The notes beneath the pieces are model-generated. The model did no database searches, was not told the DNA's origin, and saw only the letters and a list, made by a program, of their open reading frames with translations. From the NCBI RefSeq assembly GCF_031458235.1, contig NZ_JAVDYB010000001.1, positions 5,566,001-5,630,000 of the forward strand: a stretch of 64,000 nt of DNA, written 5' to 3'. Origin of the DNA: Catenuloplanes atrovinosus (lineage in GTDB: Bacteria; Actinomycetota; Actinomycetes; Mycobacteriales; Micromonosporaceae). Position 1 is the stretch's first letter. Each line of letters begins with the position of its first letter. Below are positions 8,944 to 63,475 of this stretch, piece by piece. The translations under genes were made by a program, and so were the position numbers.

Positions 8944-10042
8944 CCCGGAGTGGAGCGCGCCCGGCCAGGGCGGGCAGAGCTGGGGCGATCAGCCGGCCTA
9001 CGGCCAGCAGCCACCGGTCCAGGGACAACCGCAGCCGGGGTACGGGCAGCAGCCACCGGCGTACGGCCAGCCACCGGTCCACGGCCAGCCGCCGGCTTAC
9101 GGACAACCGCCGGTTTACGGACAGCCGCCTCAGCAGCAGCCGGTCTACGGACAGCCGCCGCAGCAGGCACCGGTCTACGGGCAACCGCCCCAGCAGGCAC
9201 CGGTCTACGGACAGCCGCCGGTCTACGGCCAGCCGCCGGTTCACGGACAGCCGCCGGTTTACGGACAGCCGCCCGCGCAGGGGCAGCAGCAGCCCGGTGG
9301 GCAGCCGGCGCCGCAGGGCGCGGGCGGGGACAGCGTGGTCCGGGTGGTGTGGGTCTACCCCGACCTGCTCTCCACCTACGGCGACCGCGGCAACATGCTG
9401 ATCCTGGCCAAGCGGGCGCAGCAGCGCGGCATCCCGGTGGAGACCATCGAGGTCCGCTCCGACCAGCCACTGCCCACGCACGCGGACGTGTATCTGATCG
9501 GCGGCGGCGAGGACGGCCCGCAGGCGCTCGCGGCGCAGCGGCTGAACGCGGACGGCGGCCTGCACCGCGCCGTCAACCAGGGCGCCGCCGTCTTCGCGGT
9601 CTGCGCCGGCTACCAGTTGCTCGGCACGTCGTTCTTCGCCAAGGGCGCCAAGTGCCAGGGCCTGGAGCTGATCGACATCTACTCCGACCGGGGCGAGACC
9701 CGCGCGGTCGGCGAGCTGGCCGGCGACGTCGACCCGCGCCTCGGCCTGCCGCGGCTGACCGGCTTCGAGAACCACGGCGGGCGCACCCACCTCGGCCCGA
9801 CCGTCTCGCCGCTGGCCCGGGTCAGCGTCGGCATCGGCAACGACGGCCAAACCGAGGGCGCGTGGCGCGGCAAGATCCTCGGGACGTACTCGCACGGACC
9901 CGCGCTGGCCCGCAACCCCGCCATCGCGGACCTGCTGCTGCGCTGGGCGACCGGCTACGACACGCTCCCGCCGGTCGACGACACGTGGCACGATCACCTG
10001 CGGAACGAGCGGCTCACCGCCGCCCGGCCGAACCCGGCGTGA
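8933..10042 (+). CDS. gatD: Lipid II isoglutaminyl synthase, glutaminase subunit GatD, with a Pro/Gln/Tyr-rich extension
   Basis: Class I (CobB/CobQ-like) glutamine amidotransferase that supplies ammonia to MurT; 369 aa. The catalytic domain starts near residue 134 ([20 protein letters not shown]). The nucleophile is Cys224 ([10 protein letters not shown]) and the histidine is His321 (TYSHGP). GatD is normally about 240 aa; the extra 130 residues are imperfect repeats of [10 protein letters not shown]. The GTG at 8933 overlaps the end of murT, which supports a real extended start, although an internal GTG near the domain border cannot be excluded. Confidence 0.9.
8998..9294 (+). repeat. Imperfect in-frame repeats coding for [10 protein letters not shown]-type units
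   Basis: About 300 bp of short tandem units of the form (c/t)acgg(c/a)cagccgccggt encode alternating [18 protein letters not shown] and [10 protein letters not shown]. The period varies between 18, 24 and 30 bp, so the array is imperfect. It stays in frame with gatD throughout, which argues that it is translated. Confidence 0.85.
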
Positions 10043-57823: not shown

Positions 57824-59884
57824 ATGGATACTCAGGTCGCCGACGAACTTCTGGGCTCGCTTGTCGACGGGCGCTACCGCATTCGCGGTCGAGTCGCCCG
57901 TGGCGGCATGGCGACCGTGTACACCGCTACCGACGAGCGCCTCGAGCGCACGGTGGCTCTCAAGATCATCCATCCGTCGCAGAGCCGCGACCCGCGCTTC
58001 CTGGAGCGGTTCACCGACGAGGCGAAGACGATAGCGCGGCTGACCCACCCCAACGTGGTCGCCGTCTACGACCAGGGCGTCTACCGCGGCCTGCCGTACC
58101 TGGTGATGGAGTACGTGCGCGGCCGCACGCTGCGCGACATCCTGGCCCAGCGGCGCCGGCTGGACCCGGGCGAGGCGCTGACCATCCTGGACCAGATGCT
58201 CGCCGCGGTCGCCGCCGCACACCGCGCCGGACTGGTCCACCGCGACGTCAAGCCGGAGAACGTGCTGGTCGCAGAGCCGCCGAGCGGCGGGCTGATGGAC
58301 GCGGTGGTCAAGGTCGCCGACTTCGGCCTGGCCCGCGCGGTCGAGGCGAGCGCGGAGGACGAGTCCGGCGGCGGCCAGCTGATGGCCACCGTGGCGTACG
58401 TGGCACCCGAGCTGGTCTCCGAGGGCAAGGCGGACACCCGCACCGACGTCTACGCGTCCGGCATCGTGCTGTTCGAGATGCTCACCGGCCGCGTGCCGTA
58501 CGACGGCGACCAGCCCATCGAGATCGCCTGGGCGCACGTCGACAACGACGTCCCCGCGCCGTCCACGCTGGTCCCGGGCCTGCCGCCGTCGGTGGACGCG
58601 CTGGTCCGGTCCGCCACCCGGCGCGACCCGGCGGCCCGGCCCACGGACGCCGGCCGGCTGCTCACCGCCGTGCAGGCGGTCCGCGAGGAGCTGGGCAGCG
58701 CGCCCGCCGCCGTACCGCCGCGCCCCGGCGACGCCGCGACCGCGCAGCTGCGGCCGGTCTCCGAGCCGACCCAGGTGGTGGCGCGGGTCCAGCCGCCGGT
58801 GGTGGACGACCGCCCGCCGTGGTCGCGCCTGCCCGGCCAGCCGGAGCGCGCCCGCCCGCAGACGTACCCGGCCGGCGGCTACCAGCCACCCGCCGGCGGC
58901 ACCTACTCCTCCGGCGGCACGGCGTACGGCAGCACCGCTTCCGGCGGCACCGCGTACGCCTCCGGCGGCGGCGCGTACGGCACGCCCCGCCGCCCGGCCC
59001 CGGCGGAGAACCCGCGGCTGCGCGTGGCCCTGCTCGCGGGCGGCCTGGCCGTGCTGCTGGTGGTGCTGCTCGGCGGCTGGTGGCTCGGCTTCGGGCGGTA
59101 CACCACCGTGCCCACGCTGACCAACCTCTCCCAGGCGGACGCACAGAGCGCGATCACCCAGGCCGGCTTCGAGGTCCGGCTCGGCGACGGCCGGTACGAC
59201 GAGACCGTGCCCAAGGACTCCGTGGTCGCGCAGGACCCGCCCAGCGGCAGCCGGCTGACCAAGGGCTCCACGGTCACGCTGATCCTCTCGCTCGGCCCGG
59301 AGCGCATCGTGGTGCCGGACGTGGTGGGCAAGGACTTCGCCGTGGCCAAGCTGGATCTGGAGAACCTGGGTCTTACGGCCGAGCGCGGCCCGGACCGGTT
59401 CGACAACGCGATCCCCGAGGGCTTCGTGGTCGCGGTCGAGCCGGCGGTGAACGCGGAGGTCAAGCCCGGCGACCGGGTGACGGTGACGGTCAGCAAGGGC
59501 CGCGCGCCGATCACCGTGCCCAGCGTGATCGGCAAGAACGTCAACGAGGCGCGCGCCCAGCTGGCCGCGCTCGGGCTGAACGTGCTGGAGGAGCGCAAGG
59601 ACGACCCGAACCGGGCACGCGACGAGGTCATCTCGCAGGACCCGCCGGACGGTGCCGGTGCCGAGCCGGGCGCGGACATCCGGCTGACGGTGAGCAACGG
59701 CCCGCCGCAGGTCACGCTGCCCCGGGTGGTCGACCGCCCCTGCCAGGAGGCGAAGGCGCAGCTGGAGGGCATGGGCCTGCGGGTGCGGACCGACGTCAAC
59801 CCGAACGCGACCGTCCGCTTCCAGAACCCGGCGGAGAACACGCCGGTCGATCCGAACGCCGAGGTCGTGCTCACGTGCTTCTAG
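57824..59884 (+). CDS. pknL: Serine/threonine protein kinase at the pknL position, with four PASTA repeats
   Basis: A 686-aa transmembrane kinase. The kinase domain (residues about 17-290) has the glycine loop GRVARGGMATVY, Lys47, HRDVKPEN at 139-146 and DFG at 166-168. The activation loop is Ser/Glu/Gly rich (EASAEDESGGGQL). After a Pro/Gly/Tyr-rich juxtamembrane linker comes one helix (about 402-422), then four PASTA repeats (about 427-686) that in other kinases bind muropeptides or lipid II. M. tuberculosis PknL, in the same gene neighbourhood, lacks PASTA domains. The ATG at 57824 is chosen. The 3' end overlaps endonuclease IV by 10 bp. Confidence 0.9.
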   Translation: MDTQVADELLGSLVDGRYRIRGRVARGGMATVYTATDERLERTVALKIIHPSQSRDPRFLERFTDEAKTIARLTHPNVVAVYDQGVYRGLPYLVMEYVRGRTLRDILAQRRRLDPGEALTILDQMLAAVAAAHRAGLVHRDVKPENVLVAEPPSGGLMDAVVKVADFGLARAVEASAEDESGGGQLMATVAYVAPELVSEGKADTRTDVYASGIVLFEMLTGRVPYDGDQPIEIAWAHVDNDVPAPSTLVPGLPPSVDALVRSATRRDPAARPTDAGRLLTAVQAVREELGSAPAAVPPRPGDAATAQLRPVSEPTQVVARVQPPVVDDRPPWSRLPGQPERARPQTYPAGGYQPPAGGTYSSGGTAYGSTASGGTAYASGGGAYGTPRRPAPAENPRLRVALLAGGLAVLLVVLLGGWWLGFGRYTTVPTLTNLSQADAQSAITQAGFEVRLGDGRYDETVPKDSVVAQDPPSGSRLTKGSTVTLILSLGPERIVVPDVVGKDFAVAKLDLENLGLTAERGPDRFDNAIPEGFVVAVEPAVNAEVKPGDRVTVTVSKGRAPITVPSVIGKNVNEARAQLAALGLNVLEERKDDPNRARDEVISQDPPDGAGAEPGADIRLTVSNGPPQVTLPRVVDRPCQEAKAQLEGMGLRVRTDVNPNATVRFQNPAENTPVDPNAEVVLTCF

Positions 59885-61633: not shown

Positions 61634-62455
61634 TCACTGTCCCTGTGCGTTCAGCACGTCCACCACGAAGCGCAGGTCGCCGGTCGGCCGGCCGCTCCCG
61701 TCGTCCTTGTCGCCGTAGGCCAGGTCCGGCGGCAGGTCCAGGATGATCCGGCTGCCCACCGGCACGTTCAGCAGGCCCTTCTCCCAGCCGTCGATCAGCT
61801 GGCCCATGCCGATGGTGAACTCGATCGCCTGCTGCCGGCTCCACGACGAGTCGAACTCCTCGCCGGTGCCGTACAGCACGCCCACGTAGTTCGCCGTGAT
61901 CAGGTCGCCCGCCTTGGTGGCCGGGCCGGTCCCCTTGATCACATACGTAATCTTGGGCTTGCCCTTCTCGAGCGCGCCCTCACCCTTCTCCACCGTCGGC
62001 TTCGTGCTCAGCGCCGGGTCGGCACCGGCCGGGACCGGCGGGAACGGCACCGCGGGCGGCACCGACTGCTGCTCCTCGGCCGGCGCGGTCGGCGTGGCGG
62101 CGGGCTCGGCCGACGGGTCGGTCCGGCGGCTGTCCGCGAACCACACCGCGCCGACGATCACCGCGACCACCGCGAGACCGATCACGGCCAGACCGAACGC
62201 CTGCCGGCCGGCCTTGCGGGCGCGGGCACGCTGCGTCTCTATGCGCAGCAGCTCCCGCTTCTCCGCCTTGGTCAGCGGGCGGGCCTCCTCGGCCTTCTCC
62301 GTCTCCTCGGCGGTGTCGCCGGCCTCCTCGGCCGTGGCCTCGTCCGCGCCCCCGGCGGCGGCCTCGTCCTGGTCCTTGTCCGCCGCCTCGTCGATGACGT
62401 CCGCCTTCTTCGGCGCCGTCGTCTCGGACTTCTCCGTTCCGACCGGATCGCTCAT
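61634..62455 (-). CDS. Membrane-anchored FKBP-type peptidyl-prolyl isomerase
   Basis: A 273-aa protein folding helper. An acidic Glu/Ala-rich cytoplasmic tail (residues about 1-70) is followed by a basic segment and one membrane helix (QAFGLAVIGLAVVAVIVGAVWFA), then a linker. The extracytoplasmic FKBP domain shows AGDLITANYVGVLYGTGEEFDSSW, FTIGMGQLIDGWEKGLLNVPVGSRIILDLPPDLAYG and LRFVVDVLNAQ. Key FKBP aromatic and Asp positions (Tyr, Asp of FDSSW, Trp of IDGWE) are present. The ATG at 62455 is preferred over a long non-conserved extension to 62593. Confidence 0.9.
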   Translation of the reverse strand: MSDPVGTEKSETTAPKKADVIDEAADKDQDEAAAGGADEATAEEAGDTAEETEKAEEARPLTKAEKRELLRIETQRARARKAGRQAFGLAVIGLAVVAVIVGAVWFADSRRTDPSAEPAATPTAPAEEQQSVPPAVPFPPVPAGADPALSTKPTVEKGEGALEKGKPKITYVIKGTGPATKAGDLITANYVGVLYGTGEEFDSSWSRQQAIEFTIGMGQLIDGWEKGLLNVPVGSRIILDLPPDLAYGDKDDGSGRPTGDLRFVVDVLNAQGQ

Positions 62456-62591
62456 CTGTCTGTCGACTCCCGATGGACAAGGGCCCGGCTCAGGCCCGTA
62501 CGGCGAATAGCTTGAATTTCTCGGTACACCGTAATGCCTGAAGCTGGACGCGACCCACCCGGGAGCGAACGGATCGGTACCGTTGTCTGTC

Positions 62592-62669
62592 ATGAGCGAG
62601 CTCGCGAGCGAATCATGGGCTCAGCGCCGCCCACCACGGAACCGCAGCATGGAGGATTTTCCGGCATGA
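62592..62669 (+). CDS. Micro-ORF 1 of the 74-bp array
   Basis: A 25-aa ORF, MSELASESWAQRRPPRNRSM plus EDFPA, ending in TGA that overlaps the next ATG. It differs from the later copies at residue 9 (Trp instead of Ser). It is first in the array, about 135 bp from the divergent FKBP start. Its own Shine-Dalgarno is not obvious. Whether it is translated is unknown. Confidence 0.45.
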   Translation: MSELASESWAQRRPPRNRSMEDFPA

Positions 62670-62743
62670 GCGAGCTCGCGAGCGAATCATCGGCTCAGCG
62701 CCGCCCACCACGGAACCGCAGCATGGAGGATTTTCCGGCATGA
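62666..62743 (+). CDS. Micro-ORF 2 of the 74-bp array
   Basis: A 25-aa ORF, MSELASESSAQRRPPRNRSM plus EDFPA. Its ATG overlaps the stop of micro-ORF 1 (ATGA), with GGAGG 10 bp upstream. Confidence 0.45.
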   Translation: MSELASESSAQRRPPRNRSMEDFPA

Positions 62744-62817
62744 GCGAGCTCGCGAGCGAATCATCGGCTCAGCGCCGCCCACCACCGAACCGCAGCATGG
62801 AGGATTTTCCGGCATGA
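62740..62817 (+). CDS. Micro-ORF 3 of the 74-bp array
   Basis: A 25-aa ORF with Pro instead of Arg at residue 16 (RRPPPNRS), otherwise as micro-ORF 2. ATGA overlap at both ends. Confidence 0.45.
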   Translation: MSELASESSAQRRPPPNRSMEDFPA

Positions 62818-62891
62818 GCGAGCTCGCGAGCGAATCATCGGCTCAGCGCCGCCCACCACCGAACCGCAGCATGGAGGATTTCCCGGCATGA
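62814..62891 (+). CDS. Micro-ORF 4 of the 74-bp array
   Basis: Same peptide as micro-ORF 3; the only extra DNA difference is a synonymous TTT to TTC near the end. Its TGA overlaps the ATG of the downstream gene at 62888. Confidence 0.45.
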   Translation: MSELASESSAQRRPPPNRSMEDFPA

Positions 62892-63475
62892 GCGACCCGA
62901 CCATGGTTGGCTTCGGTGCGAAACAGGCCTGGCTGGCCGTGCGCGACGCCGATCCCGCCGAGATCATCAAGGCGATGGAACTGCGGGACCTCGGCCCGGT
63001 CCCCTGGCGCGAGGGCATCGACCTCGCCTACCTCACGGACGACCGGCTGGTCCTCACGCCACCGCTGCCCGGCGCGGACACCGCCGCCTGGACGCTGGTG
63101 ACCGGACGCTGGCTGCTCACCCCGGCCGCCCGCGCGGAGCTGGACGTGGCGGACCTGTCCGAGTCGCTCGGCACCGAGGTGCAGTCCTTCGCCACGCACC
63201 GGGTCGGCGAGCTGCACTCCTGGCGCCGCGCGGTGAAGGGCACGCTGGTTCGCGCGTTCGGCTACATCGGCGAGAGCGGCGACGTCACGGCCTGGCACGG
63301 CGCGCCGGACGAGGCCGAGCGCGAGGCCGGCCTCCCGGCCGAGCTGGACGACGACACCACCGTGCTGATCTCCGAGCGGGACGTGCTGCGCGTCGCCGCC
63401 GCGTGGAGCGTGGACCCGACCCGCCTCGACGGCCGCCGCGCGCCCGGGCCGCTGCGCGCCGCCGCGGCGCCGTGA
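62888..63475 (+). CDS. Hypothetical protein downstream of the 74-bp array
   Basis: A 195-aa cytoplasmic protein with no family I can name. It begins MSDPTMVGFGAKQAWLAVRD, has an aromatic-rich core (LGPVPWREGIDLAYLTDDRLVLTPPLPG, then WTLVTGRWLLTP) and a Trp/His segment (VGELHSWRRAVKGTLVRAFGYIGESGDVTAWHG). No signal peptide or membrane helix is present. The ATG at 62888 overlaps the last micro-ORF stop and has GGAGG 10 bp upstream; its first codons (ATGAGCGA) match the start of each repeat unit, so the array may have arisen by duplication of this gene's translation start. Confidence 0.75.
   Translation: MSDPTMVGFGAKQAWLAVRDADPAEIIKAMELRDLGPVPWREGIDLAYLTDDRLVLTPPLPGADTAAWTLVTGRWLLTPAARAELDVADLSESLGTEVQSFATHRVGELHSWRRAVKGTLVRAFGYIGESGDVTAWHGAPDEAEREAGLPAELDDDTTVLISERDVLRVAAAWSVDPTRLDGRRAPGPLRAAAAP

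Follow-up and report, generated by a model that had tools for sequence, protein, structure and literature searches.

The window, a stretch of 64,000 nucleotides from Catenuloplanes atrovinosus, carries on its forward strand at 62592-62887 four consecutive 74-bp units, each of which, as read in the sequence, is a small ORF encoding 25 amino acids (aa) with its own GGAGG. Unit 1 (62592-62665; ORF 62592-62669, 25 aa, MSELASESWAQRRPPRNRSMEDFPA) is followed by unit 2 (62666-62739; ORF 62666-62743), unit 3 (62740-62813; ORF 62740-62817) and unit 4 (62814-62887; ORF 62814-62891), which likewise encode 25 aa each, and every unit opens with ATGAGCGAGCTCGCGAGCGAATCAT. The Shine-Dalgarno (SD) motif GGAGG lies at 62651-62655 in unit 1 and at 62725-62729, 62799-62803 and 62873-62877 in its counterparts, followed each time by 10 nt and then by the next ATG. 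Each TGA overlaps the following ATG, and the four ORFs thus form an unbroken ATGA chain, in which the stop of the fourth overlaps the ATG of a gene on the same strand (62888-63475). This gene encodes a conserved protein of 195 aa with no match in Pfam (E ≤ 0.001) or NCBIfam (E ≤ 0.1). Pairing with the anti-SD was calculated at -9.3 kcal/mol before units 2 to 4 and before the gene, and at -5.5 kcal/mol before unit 1.

TRF reported a repeat at 62591-62895 with a period of 74, 4.1 copies, 98% matches and a score of 582. The units differ at three positions, i.e., TGG/TCG (Trp/Ser) in unit 1, CGG/CCG (Arg/Pro) between units 1-2 and units 3-4, and a synonymous T/C difference in unit 4. An earlier note on this DNA had described both the chain of four 25-aa ORFs with ATGA overlaps and their own GGAGG, which is borne out by the sequence and by TRF, and these few differences, all three of which were found as claimed; the tandem 74-bp period also stands, although "perfect" was slightly too strong a word for repeats with three variable positions. 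Other tandem repeats in the window, at 8993-9273 (periods 18, 21 and 30) and 58893-58990 (period 51), have consensus units unlike the 74-bp element.

Upstream of the array, TACCGT (62578-62583, forward strand) lies 8 nt before the first ATG and is a probable -10 element of a leaderless promoter; a scan of 62400-63000 for sigma-70 promoters and terminators found nothing. The divergent neighbour on the reverse strand (61634-62453) encodes an FKBP-type peptidyl-prolyl isomerase; its start at 62453 was picked by eye, and a start at 62593 was judged an artefact. The element is absent from the focal site in 4/4 congeners, which include Catenuloplanes japonicus (G002), and four named Actinoplanes/Paractinoplanes records (L010-L013) have the gene without the element in front. 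In the congeners (n = 4), the gene begins with ATGAGCGACCAG, TACGGT or TACCGT is found 7 nt upstream of its ATG, and anti-SD pairing is weak (-3.6 to -5.5); in Actinoplanes (L010), TAGCGT is found 6 nt before the ATG. Both the spacing of this box and the weak anti-SD pairing are as expected of a leaderless gene, which the downstream gene apparently was originally. Judging by these comparisons, the focal element went in where an apparently leaderless gene had its start codon and, as TACCGT lies 8 nt before unit 1, unit 1 would have taken over the start, with the gene now reached via four ATGA steps.

Dispersal of the unit and empty sites in related genomes

In the host genome (8.9 Mb, one contig), BLAST with the array gave at least 46 matches (40 of 116 first-look candidates scored), and the head motif of the unit had 142 matches with up to 3 mismatches, 100 of them itemized, as compared to 0 for a control pattern, which indicates that the focal repeat is not due to chance. 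A sequence-only model of the unit (R1), built from 28 units, had at least 155 matches in a search that scored the best 150 of 26190 candidates, a census that may be incomplete. Sites were taken from 72 loci, i.e., the window (array region only) and 71 fetched loci (L020-L090), among which L061, L075 and L083 yielded no site; duplicates were pooled, and a single match was discarded if it had more than 11 mismatches in 38 bases. The resulting 71 sites hold at least 158 units (1 to 7 per site), with 32 single and 39 tandem sites. A search for the unit elsewhere in the genome, which the earlier note had proposed as a check, hence showed the 74-bp unit to be a repeat dispersed over the Catenuloplanes genome. 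Identity was 96% within arrays vs 76% between arrays, as fits the suggestion that units were copied recently or are homogenized.

Fewer head matches were found in the four congeners (17, 30, 24 and 14, vs 142 here), and 27 of 121 sampled Micromonosporaceae genomes, the host and the four congeners included, showed a match with up to 2 mismatches. One further genome (G095) had 23 head matches; among 17 heads read in 15 loci, 16 belonged to 77-bp units with DTGA at both ends, and the remaining one (L120, which ends in CTGA) was dropped from the set. Units of 77-80 bp between two ATGA, with heads such as MSERSER, occur in three others (G007, G046 and G005), and outside the family, though within the order, genome G333 (genus g44) carries a unit of 77 bp with a similar head that runs from GTGA to GTGA. 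A DTGA-to-DTGA ORF was present near the centre of 10 of 18 loci read, among which L165 repeats L158, and L170 and L171 lack a similar head and may be due to chance. A head variant presumed to be common in Micromonospora was rejected, as no more than 5 of 396 genomes sampled across the phylum carried it.

Seven sites (the focal site and six others) were compared with the four congeners; three were empty at DTGA in 4/4 congeners, including those at 8063742 and 1695805, and two were empty in 2/4. Of the latter, the site at 8066894 is empty in two congeners (ATGA and GTGA) and holds one unit of 59 or 62 bp, in phase by eye, in the other two, so that five units in the host (G000) stand against 1, 1, 0 and 0 in the congeners. 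The site at 8347351 is empty in two congeners; the third has an ORF unit of 65 bp whose head differs, and the state of the fourth is ambiguous. The congeners showed no clear copy of the unit at the sites at 8344019 and 1696738, where the junctions were too diverged to call. A flank query (L112) gave no match that spanned the flanks of its two sites (E ≤ 1e-30), and both sites were left unused. The 65-bp unit (L175 in G004, orthologue of G000:C1:8347351) runs from ATGA to ATGA at the same start/stop site and encodes the peptide MTERAGAGSDDGRRGSAAEETA (by eye); there may be further families of elements built in the same way.

Copy number also differed at sites that are orthologous by eye, with 2 units in G000 vs 3 in G001 (L054/L095) and 2 vs 1 at another pair (L039/L098). 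The comparison of unit copy number in related genomes that the earlier note had called for thus reveals differences between species, including 4 units vs 0 in 4/4 congeners at the focal site.

Overlaps, phase and ribosome-binding signals

At 50 of the 71 sites, the first ATG of the element overlaps the TGA of an upstream gene, defined as a co-oriented frame that spans 60 codons or more and is GC-rich at third positions. At the right end, a DTGA is reached exactly at +74 of the last unit in 56/71 sites, and for the remaining sites the nearest DTGA is elsewhere (11 sites) or was not found (4 sites). A TANNNT box at 5-9 nt was observed at 4 of the 21 sites without upstream overlap and at none of the 50 sites with one. 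Under a lenient rule, 69/71 sites lead, through ORFs that overlap or are fused, into an ORF of 60 codons or more, and the element has the same sense as the downstream ORF at 69/71 sites under this rule and at 55/68 under a strict one. The strict chain test, which was passed by 55/68 sites, takes the longest ORF as the gene and hence mislabels some sites; L022, L036 and L087 count as broken under it, yet lead to ORFs of 555, 262/343 and 364 aa, respectively.

As random loss of 1, 2 or 3 bases still passes the strict test in 40%, 76% and 80% of control trials, respectively, an intact chain is moderate evidence. In the first units, the reading frame is open at 66/67 sites, frame +2 at 46/67 and frame +1 at 0/67; one reverse-strand frame is open at 64/67 sites, and an open frame alone is therefore weak evidence. 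One of the wrong phases merely fuses adjacent units and is frequently open. Of the unit lengths that deviate from 74, 29 distinct ones were counted, and 4 of these belong to the class that breaks the chain, fewer than the expected 1/3 (one-sided P = 0.016). The earlier note had named as contrary evidence an interspersed non-coding repeat that frequently loses the ATGA phase; the repeat is indeed interspersed, but across sites the ATGA phase is mostly kept or swapped for in-frame fusion.

A seven-unit array (L042, G000:C1:2620108-2620625) is made of 73-bp units, several heads of which read ATGAGTGA, i.e., have a second TGA in the phase needed by a 73-bp period. At six loci of G000 (L029, L035, L044, L073, L079 and L080), units run in frame into the gene, and as these units lack a stop, the gene products may carry 25-100 N-terminal residues that stem from the repeat.

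Beside the 74-bp relay arrays, 15 loci have units spaced at 75 bp. As 75 is a multiple of three, such units are read as one ORF, and the ORFs of these arrays have 50, 75, 100, 125 or 150 codons or continue into the gene. In 12 of the 15 loci, inner units have no start codon; it is kept in L025, L037 and L057. Mean anti-SD pairing was -8.9 kcal/mol at junctions with a start (54 junctions, 27 loci) vs -3.1 kcal/mol at junctions without one (33 junctions, 12 loci), and this difference was significant when locus means were compared (P = 6 × 10-5; Mann-Whitney test, 27 vs 12 loci). SD words of 4 bases or more were found at 34/54 junctions with a start vs 7/33 without. In this comparison the right junction was taken for 64 sites only, and each array was a locus, so that L036 and L047, with two sites each, were lumped. 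On the other hand, no SD word was recognizable at 20 of the 54 start-bearing junctions, and 75-bp spacings make up 5 of all 54. Within the arrays whose inner junctions lack a start, pairing was weaker at inner than at last junctions in 7/11 cases, which was not significant (P = 0.10; Wilcoxon test). We read the difference between junctions as possible selection on reinitiation, under which the ribosome-binding site would be kept where a restart is needed and would decay where it is not. The termination-reinitiation ladder suggested in the earlier note is upheld in outline by the overlaps at 50/71 left and 56/71 right ends and by this pairing difference (-8.9 vs -3.1).

Comparison with MIRUs and rival explanations

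The earlier note knew of no named system like this one; a comparable named system is provided by mycobacterial interspersed repetitive units (MIRUs), reportedly described by Supply et al. 1997. The element presented here resembles MIRUs in being a short dispersed repeat at tens of loci, single or in tandem (71 sites here, 32 single and 39 tandem), in having a small internal ORF that overlaps the flanking frames by DTGA at both ends (50/71 left, 56/71 right), in inserting at start codons or stop/start sites that are empty in relatives, and in sharing the orientation of the downstream gene. It differs in its host, which is Catenuloplanes (Micromonosporaceae) and not a mycobacterium.

In the consulted parts of PMC12548453, a review from 2025, MIRUs are described as apparently mobile, inserting at start codons and carrying an internal ORF coupled at -4 nt, a design that likely allows insertion with minimal effect on the gene. 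According to the parts consulted of PMC2734929, MIRUs measure 40-100 bp and occupy 41 locations in a single strain of M. tuberculosis, often in tandem, with one tandem MIRU region almost absent from other species. Beyond what these portions of the two papers describe for MIRUs, our element is also inserted at starts that are apparently leaderless, and its 75-bp pass-through arrays have lost start codons and show weak SD pairing. Short upstream ORFs that pass ribosomes to the next gene, as portrayed in the same parts of PMC12548453, likewise rely on termination-reinitiation at a 4-nt start/stop overlap, but these are gene-specific leaders, whereas here a dispersed repeat multiplies in tandem. 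Model R1 found weak matches (E = 0.0017 and 0.0089) in 2 of 14 genomes of a genus of the same order (g43, guessed to be Mycobacterium), the family of which also includes G333. As the host differs and homology with MIRUs is at most hinted at by weak model matches, we class the element, compared by description and not by sequence, as MIRU-like by design and not as a MIRU. The open-licence literature searched, as far as its texts were covered, held no report of such repeats in Catenuloplanes or Micromonosporaceae; relative to that portion of the literature, the occurrence in Micromonosporaceae, the apparently leaderless insertion and the pass-through arrays with decayed start signals appear to be new.

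We propose, with a probability of roughly 85%, that the 74-bp unit represents a small interspersed element which is non-autonomous, operates in the manner of MIRUs and is inserted at DTGA gene starts. Such an element, presumably mobile by some means, would enter a DTGA (usually ATGA) gene start, mostly a stop/start overlap inside an operon and, in the focal case, the start codon of an apparently leaderless gene. It would bring along an ATGA start, a 25-aa ORF, an SD and an end by which ATGA is restored at the following start. Ribosomes would load at the original signal, i.e., at the stop of the upstream gene or, here, at the leaderless ATG, translate the unit, terminate at its TGA and reinitiate on the overlapping ATG. 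Insertion would be tolerated because the ORF of the unit hands ribosomes on to the host gene, and tandem duplication would then extend the array, each copy adding one more stop-and-restart step.

An unlikely alternative is a regulatory or phase-variable device in which expression of the downstream gene would depend on how many units precede it and would shift with slippage. The copy number differences between species (L054/L095, L039/L098 and 8066894) and the 96% identity within arrays would fit such a device, but the sites precede many different genes, 32 of 71 are single-copy, and length changes mostly leave translation in phase, so that a change in copy number should at most alter the level of expression and not switch the gene off. 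It is even less plausible that the unit spread because it encodes a useful multicopy microprotein (MSELASESSAQRR...), another proposal of the earlier note. Between arrays, pN/pS was 0.43 for the head (codons 2-14), where third positions are the most variable, and this suggests some constraint on the head of the peptide; pN/pS of 0.91 for the tail and 0.71 for the whole unit (50 arrays) suggests little on the tail and speaks against the microprotein. Also against a microprotein, one unit from each of 50 arrays gave 50 different peptides, many 75-bp arrays are one long ORF, units in G095 have different tails, and the peptide has no NCBIfam match. Plain tandem duplication of the gene start, without a mobile element, could draw on the resemblance between the first codons of the gene and the start of the unit (ATGAGCGAC vs ATGAGCGAG), but it is contradicted by the dispersal of the unit over 71 sites and by the empty focal site in 4/4 congeners, and we give it next to no credence.

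Two further candidates were rejected. For an RNA element no structure was supported, as Rfam gave no match at E ≤ 1 in 62400-63100, no pair was changed on both sides in a consensus folding of 28 units, a swap test of the tail arms revealed no covariation in 50 units (z = 0.4 and -0.3), and in the 77-bp class, for which 15 distinct units were used, the same kind of test yielded z = -1.6, a value as low or lower being reached in 289 of 5000 permutations. For a plasmid or phage origin, plasmid and phage records held no match at E ≤ 0.001.

A bolder extension of the MIRU-like reading, which we put forward tentatively and regard as rather doubtful, is a family of mobile coupling ORFs across several actinobacterial genera that here captures leaderless genes and turns them into slippage-variable, SD-assisted reinitiation ladders, i.e., an evolvable translational setting. 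If true, insertion at a leaderless start would convert direct initiation into an SD-assisted ladder and make each captured gene evolvable. The data point to a MIRU-like way of life in Micromonosporaceae, and the 74-bp vs 75-bp arrays represent a natural experiment, with pairing stronger before restart codons and weaker where ribosomes would read on. The ready-made series of 1 to 7 units would make the mechanism of reinitiation, and the cost of serial reinitiation, testable. For annotation, ORFs that begin with MSELASES and some N-terminal extensions should be suspected of being repeat-derived.

At one further locus (L096, G001:C1:5612560), a truncated unit is fused in frame to what, judging by a motif, looks like a galactokinase gene, and forms a repeat-derived N-terminus; at L088 (G000:C1:8330579), orthologous to L096 by eye, the full unit and its ATGA are kept.
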